Of a DNA stretch of 33,593 nucleotides, positions 2,521 to 17,329 are shown piece after piece. The position numbers were made by a program, and so were the translations under genes. The notes below the pieces were generated by a model that had not been told where the DNA came from, did not search any database, and was given only the letters and a program-made list of their open reading frames with translations. Positions within the stretch are counted from its first letter, which is position 1. The number at the start of each line of letters is the position of its first letter. The stretch comes from a virus. The stretch is from the IMG/VR virus record IMGVR_UViG_3300043420_001530, positions 1 to 33,593 of that record. One strand, written 5' to 3'.

Positions 2521-3330
2521 TTAGCCGGTGGGCAGCGTGTAAGCCTGATCAAGCCCGCCGACGGTCATCACCTCGGCCAGCGCCGCAAGTTCAGCCTCCG
2601 TGAACTGCGCGGCAGCGCAGAGCAAATCAACGCAGGCTTGAATCGCCGCAGGGTTCGGTCGGCCGGCTTTCGCGTCCCCGATGGCCGCAATAAATTCGAC
2701 GCAGGCCGTCAGGACAGTTGAGCTCGAGGTGGCCTTCTCTCGGATCGCGGTATAGGCGGCGCTGACGAGAAGAGCGTCGTAGAAGCTCCGGTAATCACAG
2801 TCATGGCTCGCAGTCTCAACCGGCGGCACTGCAGGCCAGTTGCCGTATGCATTGCTGTTGTCGATGCTCGTCTCACCGCTCTCTGGGTCAACAATGGCGA
2901 CGCCGCCGCTAGTCAGGTATCCAGCCAGCTCCGAGGTTTCCAGGCAGGCTTCGATAGCAGAGATTTTGAGTGCAGCCGCATCGCGAATGGACTGCCGCCA
3001 AGCGCGAATCTCAGGCGGGCAAGGGGTTCCAGTGTCCGCCTCCCGAGTGATGAGCCAGTCAGTTGGCGCCAGCAGCGATCCAGCCGTCGTTCTGGTCGTT
3101 GAGCTCCAGAGGGTCTTCAGCTCTTCCAGGTCCTTGGGGATCAGAGCACCCTGGTCGTCGTAGCCCCAGTAGAAGCGCTGATCCCAGCTCGGGGGCTCCG
3201 GCGCTTCGGTAATGCCGATCGCGGCGCGCTCCTGGGGAGTTGCCAGTCGGAGCCAGTTACTGGGATACTGAATGCCAGCGTGAGTGAAAGCCCGATCCAG
3301 CGCGAGAGGCTTGCCGTCAAGAAGAAACAT
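2521..3330 (-). CDS. Tail assembly chaperone-like protein (269 aa)
   Basis: 269 aa. Around residues 80-120 it has the layout of the phage tail-fibre assembly chaperone family (Phage_tail_APC): an LL..TDW core (LLAPTDWLITREADTG), then Pro-rich residues and EIRAWRQSIRDAA. The N-terminus (MFLLDGKPLALDRAF) and the Trp-containing WDQRFYWGYDD segment resemble fibre-linked proteins. The C-terminal half is Ala-rich and helical, and unfamiliar to me. A ribosome-binding site (AGGGAG, about 9 bases before the ATG) supports the start. Position between the largest fibre gene and the collagen fibre fits a role in fibre folding or attachment. The chaperone assignment is an inference from one motif. Confidence 0.7.
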   Translation of the reverse strand: MFLLDGKPLALDRAFTHAGIQYPSNWLRLATPQERAAIGITEAPEPPSWDQRFYWGYDDQGALIPKDLEELKTLWSSTTRTTAGSLLAPTDWLITREADTGTPCPPEIRAWRQSIRDAAALKISAIEACLETSELAGYLTSGGVAIVDPESGETSIDNSNAYGNWPAVPPVETASHDCDYRSFYDALLVSAAYTAIREKATSSSTVLTACVEFIAAIGDAKAGRPNPAAIQACVDLLCAAAQFTEAELAALAEVMTVGGLDQAYTLPTG

Positions 3331-13274: not shown

Positions 13275-14417
13275 TCAGTAAACGAAGGAGTACGCCACGG
13301 TCACGAAGTCCTTGTTCAGGATCTCGAAACCGGCGAAGAGGGACCAGATCATGATGATGAAACGACTGAAATCGTCGTTGTTGTTCAGCAGAATCTGGGC
13401 GTTGTTGCCGCCGATGCCCACGCCAACGGCCTGAGGGCCGAAGAACAGCATCGGAGCAGCAGTGGTGACGGCCGAAGTAATCGACGCGTCGGTGATGGTC
13501 ACTTGCAGGCTCTTCTCGGGAAGGTTGGTGCTTTCAAACCAACGCACGCCCTCAAAGAGGAAGCCGGACGGCATCACGGGCTGACCAGCAACGAAGCCGG
13601 CCTGGCCATAAGCGGGACCCATACCACGGAAGAACGTAGCGTTGGGAGCCAGCTCGGGTTGCATGGGGTTGACCATGCCATTGCCTGCATAACGAGCGAT
13701 CTCACGGAACGCATCGTTTTGACGCAGGTGCATCATTGCGGTGGGATCCGCAATGCAGCGATAGTACCCATCAGCGAAGGTGGGTACGTTTCGCTTGCGC
13801 ATGTCCTTGACCACCTCGAGGAGGTCGGTCTTGACATCAAACTTGGCCGATTCACCGGCACCGTAAGTCAGGAAGGGCGCACCAGACGCCTTCGACTTCT
13901 TCAGGGGGTAGAAGTAACCACCTTTGGTGCTATCAGCGGCGCCATTGGCCTCCGCTTTGAACAGCTCATCAGCGAACACACGATCACGCCAGCGGCGGTA
14001 ATCGTCGAGAAGAGTGAGACTTCCGATCGATTGATGGAAGACGTTCAGGTTACCGGTATCCAGCAGAAGACGCTGTGCGGTAAGTAGAGTCTCGCGTGCA
14101 ACTTTGAACGTAGAAGGTGCACTTGTATCGGTAGGATCTGCAGGTCCGGTATATTCCTTGAGCGAAACAAGGACCTTATCCTTAACGATACTGCGCGAAG
14201 ATGCTGTGCCGAGAGTCTGATCAGCGGTACGCTCACGGCTATCTTTGGTACCAGGAGCACCCCAGAAGCGGTAGCGATCAAGCTGAACTGTTTGACCGGG
14301 TTGTTTAGCGAAATCGTGAACAACAACCGGCTCGACCGCCATCTCCACAATGTAGGAAGGATGCGGGCGATACAGCTCGGCACCAAGCAGCTTCGGAAAA
14401 TCGTTATCAATCCACAT
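13275..14417 (-). CDS. Major capsid protein (N4-gp56-like, HK97 fold)
   Basis: 380 aa. Key segments match the N4-gp56 class of HK97-fold capsid proteins: VVVHDFAKQPGQTVQLDRYR near the N-terminus; VLVSLKEYTGP; the helix STFKVARETLLTAQRLL; YRCIADPTAMMHLRQNDAFR, which corresponds to the family's hallmark position recalling peptide-binding loops; and GVRWFESTNLP near the end. The length suits a capsid protein without a large prohead propeptide. The gene follows a divergent gap with a candidate -10 element and is followed by a companion gene with a very strong ribosome-binding site. Its own GGAG lies 11 bases before the ATG. The homology is from recall; capsid identity is also backed by context. 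Confidence 0.85.
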   Translation of the reverse strand: MWIDNDFPKLLGAELYRPHPSYIVEMAVEPVVVHDFAKQPGQTVQLDRYRFWGAPGTKDSRERTADQTLGTASSRSIVKDKVLVSLKEYTGPADPTDTSAPSTFKVARETLLTAQRLLLDTGNLNVFHQSIGSLTLLDDYRRWRDRVFADELFKAEANGAADSTKGGYFYPLKKSKASGAPFLTYGAGESAKFDVKTDLLEVVKDMRKRNVPTFADGYYRCIADPTAMMHLRQNDAFREIARYAGNGMVNPMQPELAPNATFFRGMGPAYGQAGFVAGQPVMPSGFLFEGVRWFESTNLPEKSLQVTITDASITSAVTTAAPMLFFGPQAVGVGIGGNNAQILLNNNDDFSRFIIMIWSLFAGFEILNKDFVTVAYSFVY

Positions 14418-14507: not shown

Positions 14508-15269
14508 TTGGACGCTACAGACGTCCGCGGACTGCTCGGGCTACTCCTCGCGGATGGGAGTCTTGTCCCATATCGCTGTCCTGGAGGGGGTTATATCCAG
14601 TTGACCCTGACAGCGGGGATCCGGGAGTCCGCGTTTCTCGAGGAGAAAGTGGCCGAATTCCGCCAATTCATCCCCACGAAGGCGCAGATTGTTCACTACA
14701 AAACGAAGCCGCGCGCCAATGGTCGCAGTACATCTGTTCTGCGCTTCCGAGTTTCGACGACCAAGCTGCGGCCGGTCTACAACCTGCTCTACCCGCGGGG
14801 CGACCGCGAGCTCACGCAGACAGCGCTCGACATGCTCGGCGCTCAGGCTGCGGCATGGCTCTGGGCGGAGGGGGCCAGGCCCGCAGACGACGGCAGTGTC
14901 GACCTGGCGCGAGTCGGGCACGGCTTTGACGAGGCTCTACTGGTCTGCCAGTGGCTGGGGATCCTGACCGGCGCAGAGTCCTCGCTGAGTGAGACGCACG
15001 TCCGTCCGCGTCTGCACTTCGAGCCGGCCCAGGCCCGCAAGATCCGCGAGGCCCTGCTTCCCTATGCGCCGCGAGCGCGCATGCATCTGTTCACTGACGA
15101 GGTCTGGGATGTCAGCACCATTCGTAGCGCTCGCACTGAGCTACTGCTTGGGACGCGGGAGGATCAGGCTGCTGGGTTCACGCAAGCGCCCCTGGTTGGA
15201 GATCACGCGGCGGGAGACGGATCTGACCTATCTGCTGCATCAGAGCCGGCAACTTCACAAGCTGCATGA
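14508..15269 (+). CDS. LAGLIDADG homing endonuclease, N-terminal part
   Basis: Starts at TTG with AGGG about 7 bases upstream; an in-frame TAG immediately upstream excludes earlier starts. Residues 6-16 (VRGLLGLLLADGSL region) form a LAGLIDADG motif whose acidic Asp would be catalytic. YIQLTLTAG, KLRPVYNLLYPRGDREL and a helical LGAQAAAWLWAEGA segment follow, the layout of the LAGLIDADG_2 type. Homology in this frame ends near residue 215. The last 38 residues read like out-of-frame translation, while matching sequence continues in the +1 frame from 15154. Free-standing homing endonucleases cut intron- or intein-less alleles and spread beside conserved genes. This one sits directly next to the capsid gene. 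Confidence 0.75.
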   Translation: MDATDVRGLLGLLLADGSLVPYRCPGGGYIQLTLTAGIRESAFLEEKVAEFRQFIPTKAQIVHYKTKPRANGRSTSVLRFRVSTTKLRPVYNLLYPRGDRELTQTALDMLGAQAAAWLWAEGARPADDGSVDLARVGHGFDEALLVCQWLGILTGAESSLSETHVRPRLHFEPAQARKIREALLPYAPRARMHLFTDEVWDVSTIRSARTELLLGTREDQAAGFTQAPLVGDHAAGDGSDLSAASEPATSQAA

Positions 15270-15690
15270 CGGTCCACTCGACCTGGTGATCGACACAGTC
15301 CAGACCGACGGGTTCTACGACGATCGCCGGCTGCGCTGTCACGGCGAAGGGCTGTATCGCGTCTACGAGCTGCTCTACCCACGCGACACGTACACCATCT
15401 CCGACGACCTGCTGGACATCGCGGGGCATCGCGGCATCGTCTCGCTGTGGTGCGACAAAGGGCGCATCCGCAACAACCGCTACGAGATCCCATTCGGCAC
15501 CCGGGCGCGGAACTACGCCGATACGCGGATGGTCCGTCGCTGGCTGCGGCGACTCGGTTATACGCCTGACCAGTTCAACCAAATCGGACGCGATCGCTGC
15601 ATTCGCTTCAGTGGATGCAATGCTGATGACTTCGCCCGCAAGCTGAGGCCGCAACTGCCGCGTCATCGCGTTGCATCACTCAGGCGTTAG
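15154..15690 (+). pseudogene. LAGLIDADG homing endonuclease, C-terminal part (frameshifted)
   Basis: In the frame one base ahead of the upstream half, the sequence continues as GRGRIRLLGSRKRPWLEITR, then LTYLLHQSRQLHKLHDG, LYRVYELLYPRDTYTI, a GIVSLWCDKGRIRN segment and a helical C-terminus to 15690. This parallels the first half (LLLADGSL; YIQLTLTAG; RPVYNLLYPR; AWLWAEGA), so the protein is a tandem two-domain endonuclease. The second LAGLIDADG helix is degenerate (LLLG-GRI). Reading CTT GGG then skipping one base at about 15153 rejoins the frames. No convincing independent start exists for this half; the only option is a GTG at 14989 deep inside the first half. It may be a sequencing error, decay or a recoding site. 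Confidence 0.6.
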
Positions 15691-15750
15691 CGTGAATCAG
15701 CCGAATTTGGCTCCCCGAAGAAGAACGACGTCAGGGGATCTACTTCCAGG

Positions 15751-15779
15751 AGCTCGGGTTTTTGTCGTTTCCCTGAGCT
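15751..15779 (+). terminator. Possible hairpin downstream of the endonuclease
   Basis: AGCTCGGG and CCCTGAGCT can pair with one bulged base around a T-rich loop. There is no T-run after the stem, so it is a weak candidate. The rest of 15691-15889 shows no gene I can support. CTCTAGCAT at about 15858-15866 might be a promoter element for the next ORF. Confidence 0.25.
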
Positions 15780-15889
15780 GGTGAGTGAACCGCCGTGCGC
15801 CTGATCACCGTGCGGCGGCGCCTGGCTGCATCATCCAGATACCGCAGTGCCCGCTTTCTCTAGCATGGCCGTATCTTGGTGGACATTAT

Positions 15890-16051
15890 ATGGAAGACCG
15901 CAATGCAGCGAAGCCCCTCGAGGGCGCATGCAGTCTCGAATCATCGAAGAGTCCGCCCGCTGATCCACTGGATTCTGGACTGCGGCGCAAGTTCCTGCTC
16001 TACTGCGAAGAAAACCCTGGCGCGGAAGAGTGCCGCGTGCATGACGTCTGA
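15890..16051 (+). CDS. Mini CP12-like protein (53 aa)
   Basis: From ATG 15890 (GGTGG 7 bases upstream) this encodes 53 aa; a GTG at 15785 would add 35 unlikely residues. The C-terminus, YCEENPGAEECRVHDV, matches the C-terminal loop of CP12: Cys, eight residues, Cys, then R-x-aromatic-D, with a Pro in the loop and acidic residues before the second Cys. In CP12 these cysteines form a redox-sensitive disulfide and the tail inserts into GAPDH, allowing GAPDH and phosphoribulokinase to be sequestered. A preceding ADPLDSG also recalls CP12, but the central AWD-VEEL region is absent. Known cyanophages carry cp12. Here the gene is coupled by TGATG to a virion-type gene. The match covers only about 20 residues. 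Confidence 0.55.
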   Translation: MEDRNAAKPLEGACSLESSKSPPADPLDSGLRRKFLLYCEENPGAEECRVHDV

Positions 16052-16851
16052 TGGCACTGACGCAGACTGCCGCTTACGAGGAACTGCGTAGTCGTTACGG
16101 CGGCAGTGATTCAACGCTGCCCTCGTTCCTGAGGCCCTACTACACCAAGTACAACGCGATCACGAAATCCCTGGACCTGGGGACCACTGACATCTTGATC
16201 GCTGACCTCGGTGGACAGATCGGGTCGCAGGCCGGCGCCAGCACGCTCTACTTCAAGGTGGTCCTGCCGCGGCGAGTCGATCTCCAGGTTCGCAAACGCA
16301 GCACCGGTGCATTCACCGATCGGTTTGTGAGCGTCGGGATTCTTGATGCCGATCGCAATCCAGTTCCGATCGATACCGCCGGCTACGGGTATCAGGGCGA
16401 TCGCTACGACACGTCAATCGACGAAAGCCTGCTTGGACTGCCGGCGGGGCTGTACTACATCACGGTCTCAAGCAACCAGTGGCAGTCCGTCCCTTACGCG
16501 ATCACAATCAGCGTTGGGCGCTATGCCTTGCTCGACGGCGCAGCACTCGGGCGCGCTCCACTGGCCGCACGGATCCCGCTGATCAAGATCGCTGGTCCTG
16601 CAACGGGGACACTGCTCGGCACTGGCACGCTCGTCAATCCCAACGCCATCAAAGAAGCGACCGGCACAGCAGGAGGTGCAGCAGTGCCTGCGCTGACATT
16701 GACCATCATGCGTGGCGCCGCCGGTGGATCCATGCTGCCCAGCGGTCGACTGAAGGCAACATGGCGGCTGAGTGGCGCAGCAACCGGTACATCCGCAAGC
16801 ACCGGTACGCTCACCAGCGAGATACCTTACGGCGGCGGCTACGGCTACTGA
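16051..16851 (+). CDS. Beta-rich virion-type protein (266 aa)
   Basis: 266 aa. After a helical N-terminus (MALTQTAAYEELRSRYGG), residues about 40-165 form a beta-sandwich resembling pre-peptidase C-terminal/jelly-roll modules: LDLGTTDILIADLGGQIG, YFKVVLPRRVDLQVRKRS, LPAGLYYITVSSNQWQSVPY. The C-terminal 100 residues are Gly/Thr/Ala-rich with short repeats (GTLLGTGTL, GTSASTGTL) and end YGGGYGY. No enzyme motif is visible. Its ATG overlaps the stop of the CP12-like ORF (TGATG). Being in a plus-strand block amid minus-strand virion genes, it is probably structural, but that is inference. Confidence 0.72.
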   Translation: MALTQTAAYEELRSRYGGSDSTLPSFLRPYYTKYNAITKSLDLGTTDILIADLGGQIGSQAGASTLYFKVVLPRRVDLQVRKRSTGAFTDRFVSVGILDADRNPVPIDTAGYGYQGDRYDTSIDESLLGLPAGLYYITVSSNQWQSVPYAITISVGRYALLDGAALGRAPLAARIPLIKIAGPATGTLLGTGTLVNPNAIKEATGTAGGAAVPALTLTIMRGAAGGSMLPSGRLKATWRLSGAATGTSASTGTLTSEIPYGGGYGY

Positions 16852-16912: not shown

Positions 16913-17329
16913 ATGGCGTTTTCCCAGTATCTTGCCGACAAAATTCTGGTATGGATCAAGGGATCGTCGTTCCCTACTGCGCTGACCACGGTCTATGTCA
17001 GCCTGCATTCCGGTGATCCCGGCACCGCTGGCACTAACAACAATGTGCAGGCCACAGTGACCGGCAGCGCAAACCGCACTGCGATCACGACCTCGACCTT
17101 CAGCACGGTTGGCGCGGCATCTGGTGGTGGCTTTCAGATCACCAACAGCAACTCGGTGCAGATGACCACCAATGCTGCTGGTAGTGCCACGGTGACGCAC
17201 TTCGGGGTTTGGGACGCAGTGACCGGCGGCAACTTCCTGGCCTCAGGTCAGCTCACATCTTCTGTTGATGTGGTCGGCGGCGATACCGTTCAGTTCAACG
17301 CCAGCGCCCTGGCGATTCGCCTGGTCTGA
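16913..17329 (+). CDS. Virion-type beta-sandwich protein (138 aa)
   Basis: 138 aa. The pattern LTTVYVSLHSGDPGTAGTN, followed by TATVTHFGVWDAVTGGNFLA and GDTVQFNASALAIRL, is found in a common family of small phage structural proteins (tail or head decoration type). The start is supported by GAGAGG before the ATG. It is coupled by TGATG to a 42-aa basic protein. The 61-bp gap before it contains a plus-strand CCTAGAATCG element. The family resemblance is from memory; function is unknown beyond a likely place in the virion. Confidence 0.78.
   Translation: MAFSQYLADKILVWIKGSSFPTALTTVYVSLHSGDPGTAGTNNNVQATVTGSANRTAITTSTFSTVGAASGGGFQITNSNSVQMTTNAAGSATVTHFGVWDAVTGGNFLASGQLTSSVDVVGGDTVQFNASALAIRLV

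Follow-up and report, generated by a model that had tools for sequence, protein, structure and literature searches.

A minimal, tail-only CP12 gene in S-EIV1-like cyanophages

CP12 is a host switch that plugs a carbon-fixation enzyme, and phage CP12 is a textbook case of viral carbon rerouting. A short open reading frame in a viral DNA stretch of 33,593 nucleotides (hereafter the window) raises the question of whether the tail of CP12 can stand alone as a phage gene, and what such a gene would do. The earlier note on this DNA had proposed a CP12 tail without the central CP12 region in a cyanophage, and this description holds, both in the window, where the Pfam match is limited to profile positions 51-70, and in the relatives, which are likewise tail-only.

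The window comes from a freshwater virus which, judged by its major capsid protein (MCP), is an S-EIV1-like cyanophage. The protein is a full-length homologue of the capsid protein of Synechococcus phage S-EIV1 (KJ410740), with 68% identity over 379 aa (E=2e-168), and S-EIV1 was the sole MCP match among 50,697 phage records. The host of this phage lineage is Synechococcus (S-EIV1). The features of the locus are as follows.

13275..14417, minus strand: major capsid protein, a divergent neighbour by which the phage is grouped with S-EIV1 (S-EIV1 identity; phrog_1357).
14508..15269, plus strand: LAGLIDADG protein, domain 1, a conserved neighbour (PF03161, E=1.4e-5).
15109..15690, plus strand: second LAGLIDADG-like domain, which overlaps the first in the +1 frame and whose internal ATG is conserved (locus comparison).
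15709..15830, plus strand: conserved structured RNA with a kissing loop, CyVA-1-like, leader of the unit formed by mini-CP12 and the 266-aa gene (covariation).
15890..16051, plus strand: mini-CP12 gene, 53 aa (translation; Pfam CP12; 22-copy comparison; shuffle null).
15986..16045, plus strand: CP12-tail codons, profile positions 51-70 with the C-x3-P-x4-C pair (PF02672 profile search of the window; PDB tail-peptide alignment).
16051..16851, plus strand: 266-aa protein of no known family; its start shares one base with the mini-CP12 stop (TGATG), and only its position marks it as virion-type.
16913..17329, plus strand: homologue of the podophage GP4 head fibre gp80 (PF23140, E=3.7e-29; phrog_240 head protein, E=2e-29).

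Re-reading the mini-CP12 frame gave the sequence and the TGATG overlap as first described, with the start ATG at 15890, the stop TGA at 16049-16051 and the ATG of the next gene at 16051. The tail, YCEENPGAEECRVHDV, has the spacing C-x3-P-x4-C, so that the Cys-x8-Cys distance and the Pro of the earlier note stand. The aromatic residue claimed before the final Asp does not, this residue being His in the window and Tyr in a 98%-identical sister sequence (L001). The last residue of the window tail is Val, not an acid. The frame is open upstream to a GTG at 15785, which would give 88 aa. We disfavour this start because the upstream stretch overlaps the 3' half of the structured RNA and the extension is not conserved in relatives; the ATG is favoured by their conserved CATTATATGG start context.

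The profile search against Pfam CP12 (PF02672) that had been suggested as a check matched the 53-aa ORF at E=1.3e-4 and 23.1 bits, above the gathering cut-off of 22.7 bits, over positions 51-70 of the 70-position profile only; the longer 88-aa frame scored 20.8 bits, under the cut-off. The score is marginal on its own, and the case for CP12 identity therefore rests on the relatives. The core AWD_VEEL motif is absent from the window protein, which has no Pfam match before profile position 51 and an unrelated N-terminal part, and the translation contains a single N-terminal Cys (C14) in place of the N-terminal Cys pair. What can be recognised, by homology, is the CP12 tail alone: a homologous C-terminal tail of 20-30 aa with a Cys pair and an acidic end, as in GapB and ADK3. 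No virion-protein family in Pfam or PHROG was found over the ORF, which matched CP12 and two weak PHROGs of unknown function ending in the tail, and we rejected the reading as a virion protein on this ground.

A tail HMM was trained on cyanobacterial and T4-like phage CP12 tails, with genes of the mini-CP12 type left out. The end of the window ORF scored 42.0 bits. Over 18,032 ORF ends from phage loci, scores above 11 bits were confined to ORFs in the mini-CP12 slot and one further contig (L007); the 25 top-scoring ends were all mini-CP12 genes, at 18 to 44 bits, and the next scored 10.8. The top score among 360,640 shuffled ORF ends was 13.3 bits.

Searches with the mini protein by tblastn matched almost only cyanophages, including annotated CP12 proteins and an unannotated stretch of S-EIV1, and close copies were found in IMG/VR. 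The S-EIV1 gene, not previously annotated as CP12, is a 45-aa ORF, MRFYNWLICKLFKRCEIEIIKSPTAAFKSYCEENPSSRSCRIYDV, whose start lies on the stop of the preceding gene (TAATG). At least 21 related phages, S-EIV1 included, carry the same kind of gene, with lengths of 42-73 aa. Seven of seven relatives tested (six IMG/VR contigs and S-EIV1) gave exactly one CP12 match each, above the Pfam cut-off and tail-only; of 45 records whose capsid proteins are related, 14 had a tail-only CP12 match, nine of them above the cut-off. In an alignment of 22 copies neither the first Cys nor the Pro ever changes (22/22 each), the second Cys is present in 21, and both the R/K after the second Cys and the D/E two positions further on occur in all 22. 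The CxxxPxxxxC pair is thus found in the window and in 20 of 21 relatives, and none of the outcomes that the earlier note had named as counting against a CP12 tail (no profile hit above background, loss of the two Cys in homologues, a virion family covering the ORF) was observed. The N-termini are divergent and unalignable, and the AWD_VEEL core, which recruits phosphoribulokinase (PRK), and the N-terminal Cys pair are missing in every copy, while the tail is kept. In most pairs, synonymous changes outnumber the others in the codons of the tail (e.g., 15:4, 11:4 and 9:1). Altogether, the identity of the window ORF as a CP12-tail protein is well supported by these comparisons.

Members of a marine subgroup (L145, L148, L149, L151, L152, L082) also share a second motif in their N-terminal part, CxDG[FV]C...IFFAPI, which is not related to the N-terminus of CP12. 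A tail-only CP12 also occurs in a 125-kb contig (L007, 3971-4135), a few genes downstream of the gene for the large subunit of ribonucleotide reductase.

Synteny, also suggested earlier as a check, places mini-CP12 at a fixed slot. Within the clade whose capsid identity is at least about 85%, the MCP on the opposite strand is followed by the LAGLIDADG pair, the structured RNA and mini-CP12, then sometimes by a 146-aa gene, and then by the 266-aa family, the gp80 head fibre and an endolysin. Where the slot was visible (31 capsid loci), the mini gene was present in 18, one of them without the second Cys, and absent from 13. As these 13 are close relatives with the same locus, the gene is not essential. 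The overlap with a virion-type gene in the earlier note is real as an overlap; the virion type is given by position only, since the 266-aa gene precedes the gp80 homologue and its product has no virion-family match in Pfam or PHROG. Homology of the 266-aa gene to AHV82134, which lies beside the S-EIV1 mini-CP12, is weak only (hhalign E=0.0047, probability 7.5%) and is not claimed.

The LAGLIDADG-like protein has two domains whose halves lie in overlapping frames, the second always in +1, an arrangement conserved in 29 loci. Wherever the junction was inspected, an internal ATG of the second half is conserved, and in the window an SD-like GAGG precedes it. We considered a split gene, coupled initiation and a programmed frameshift; in view of the conserved ATG, internal initiation is no less likely than the frameshift.

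The RNA upstream of mini-CP12 was previously unannotated and, judged by its sequence and pairing, is related to CyVA-1. It spans 122 nt and five helices, with 94% of cells paired and two-sided changes at 26 of 35 pairs, a result matched by 0 of 500 shuffles. Its kissing loop joins the P1 loop GAACNNC to the P3 loop GNNGUUUC and is paired in 25/25 sequences, with three covarying pairs. The first hairpin scored 26.2 bits against Rfam CyVA-1, under the cut-off; downstream of the region that the Rfam model covers, the same partner hairpin also occurs at several CyVA-1 loci of cyanobacteria. About 30 loci of S-EIV1-like phages carry the RNA, whether or not they have mini-CP12, and in a distant capsid clade it lies elsewhere in the genome.

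How does this gene compare with known forms of CP12? The proteins of T4-like cyanophages (S-PRM1, S-CREM1, S-ShM2) resemble it in being encoded by cyanophage genes among tail and baseplate genes and in having the C-terminal Cys-pair tail without the N-terminal pair. They differ in length (70-75 aa) and in matching the profile over about positions 2-70 at 52-59 bits, whereas the mini form matches 47/53-70 only. As cp12 lies between tail and baseplate-hub genes in 7/8 T4-like cyanophages examined, a position beside virion genes is not new, and coupling to such genes is not the oddity it had seemed. In P-HM2, cp12 was not found in the first 30 kb, where the baseplate genes are, and its middle expression (PMC5082946) is therefore uninformative on copies in late clusters.

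Nor is a tail-only form as unusual as was first thought. P-SSM2_066, S-CBS4 gp008, S-CRES3 gp30 and an unannotated S-CBS2 ORF are cyanophage proteins that, like mini-CP12, match mainly or only the CP12 tail. P-SSM2_066 is tail-only or tail-mostly but has 88 aa, and S-CBS4 gp008 (L051, 2836-3078) has 80 aa and matches profile positions 16-70; the latter, annotated as hypothetical, lies near the large terminase gene. The tails of the siphophages S-CRES3 (L053, 2905-3069) and S-CBS2 (L052, about 2926-3099), in contrast to that of mini-CP12, have lost both Cys, which are replaced, and keep ENP...[KR]IYDV; these are possibly redox-independent forms, judging from their residues, and both lie close to a ribonucleotide reductase gene. 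A genome scan with the mini-CP12 alignment returned only three CBS-CP12 loci. The cyanobacterial CP12-C class (Stanley 2013), as it is described in PMC3906501 and compared here by Cys pattern, shares the C-terminal Cys pair and the absence of the N-terminal one, while the phage genes are shorter and have unrelated N-termini. The tails of the GapB extension, ADK3 and argininosuccinate lyase likewise use the CP12 tail alone as a GAPDH-interacting module (PMC9406205, PMC4436894), but are fused to enzymes in plants and algae, whereas mini-CP12 is a free phage protein. The peptide in PDB 3zdf has a similar 23-aa tail but is a laboratory fragment, not a natural gene. CP12 beside virion genes and tail-only or tail-mostly forms (P-SSM2, S-CBS4, S-CRES3) were thus already known; new here are the minimal gene, its occurrence across the S-EIV1-like lineage, the unannotated S-EIV1 copy and the presence/absence at a fixed locus.

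The best PDB match to the tail was this CP12 polypeptide (3zdf_C), followed by 6gfo and 3b1j. AlphaFold2 predicts a disordered leader followed by a helix at residues 30-41 and a turn, with pLDDT of about 85 at the helix and turn, in keeping with the single helix formed by the CP12 C-terminus on GAPDH (PMC3906501). A fold search with the model ranked CP12 in 6kez first, non-significantly. A functional precedent is the extension of GapB, which is homologous to the CP12 tail, is about 30 aa long and alone suffices to inhibit NADPH-GAPDH when oxidised: its terminal acid lies against Arg77 of the NADP site and NADPH-dependent activity is halved, and CP12 acts likewise on A4-GAPDH (reviewed in PMC4436894, PMC3838966). 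An interaction with GAPDH is also known for the CP12-like tails of ADK3 (PMC9406205).

By analogy with GapB, we consider a redox-gated plug of host GAPDH the likeliest role, with a probability of roughly 0.6. The minimal protein would start with a short disordered leader and continue into a single helix and a proline turn, which the Cys pair closes. Once oxidised, the tail would occupy the NADP(H) site of Gap2, the photosynthetic GAPDH of the host, where its acidic end would come close to the arginine that binds the 2'-phosphate of the cofactor, and NADPH-dependent activity would fall. Lacking the core and the N-terminal Cys pair, the protein is not expected to recruit PRK; the Calvin cycle would be slowed at GAPDH only, sparing NADPH for phage nucleotide synthesis. 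The tail-limited Pfam match, the conservation and synonymous bias, the cyanophage lineage, the 3zdf match, the GapB precedent, the predicted helix and turn and the L007 gene close to ribonucleotide reductase speak for this role. Against it, the GapB tail acts in cis and full CP12 may bind more strongly than a tail on its own, 13 close relatives lack the gene, and the window tail ends in Val. The Cys-free tails of S-CRES3 and S-CBS2 also indicate that redox gating is not universal.

The main rival to a brake at GAPDH only is a decoy, in which the tail would occupy GAPDH without bringing in PRK and so block the GAPDH-CP12-PRK complex of host CP12, leaving PRK active, with a net effect that would differ from that of full phage CP12 or even run against it. 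The loss of the PRK-recruiting parts from all copies with conservation of the tail would fit this picture, but it presumes that the tail outcompetes host CP12, and in GapB tail occupancy by itself lowers NADPH-GAPDH activity; we regard the decoy as unlikely. A protein packaged, or working with its co-translated neighbour, for which GAPDH or some other partner would serve just for docking, is less probable again. Several phages do show a TGATG or TAATG overlap, or close spacing, to the next gene, and the S-EIV1 copy is instead coupled to the gene it follows, yet the next gene varies (the 146-aa gene or the 266-aa family), the mini gene can be missing from its slot, and the L007 copy lies by ribonucleotide reductase. 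Slightly more doubtful still is a redox buffer, thioredoxin substrate or metal (Cu) binder that would act through its Cys pair, with incidental resemblance to GAPDH-binding tails: full CP12 is among the targets of thioredoxin and binds both Cu2+ and Ni2+ (PMC3906501), and the second motif of the marine subgroup holds a C-x4-C, but the aromatic before the Cys, the Pro, the R/K, the aromatic and the D/E are conserved as much as the Cys, and the Cys-free siphophage forms retain the tail. A spurious ORF with a CP12-like end by chance, for which its shortness and lone marginal Pfam score could be cited, is ruled out by the 21 further copies, their synonymous bias in most pairs and the shuffle null.

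Returning to the GAPDH plug, it is tempting to extend it to a whole cyanophage lineage, and from sequence we do so tentatively, rating the extension below the plug itself: these phages may carry a stand-alone GAPDH plug without PRK recruitment that uncouples the two Calvin-cycle enzymes which host CP12 and full phage CP12 tie to each other, acting as a brake on GAPDH alone or as a decoy directed at host CP12, and the second, unrelated module of the marine subgroup (CxDGFC...IFFAPIE) may serve another partner. A natural tail-only CP12 that is present or absent at one locus in close relatives makes it directly testable whether phage CP12 acts via GAPDH, PRK or both, and the abundant S-EIV1-like phages gain a carbon-metabolism gene that had not been annotated in them before.
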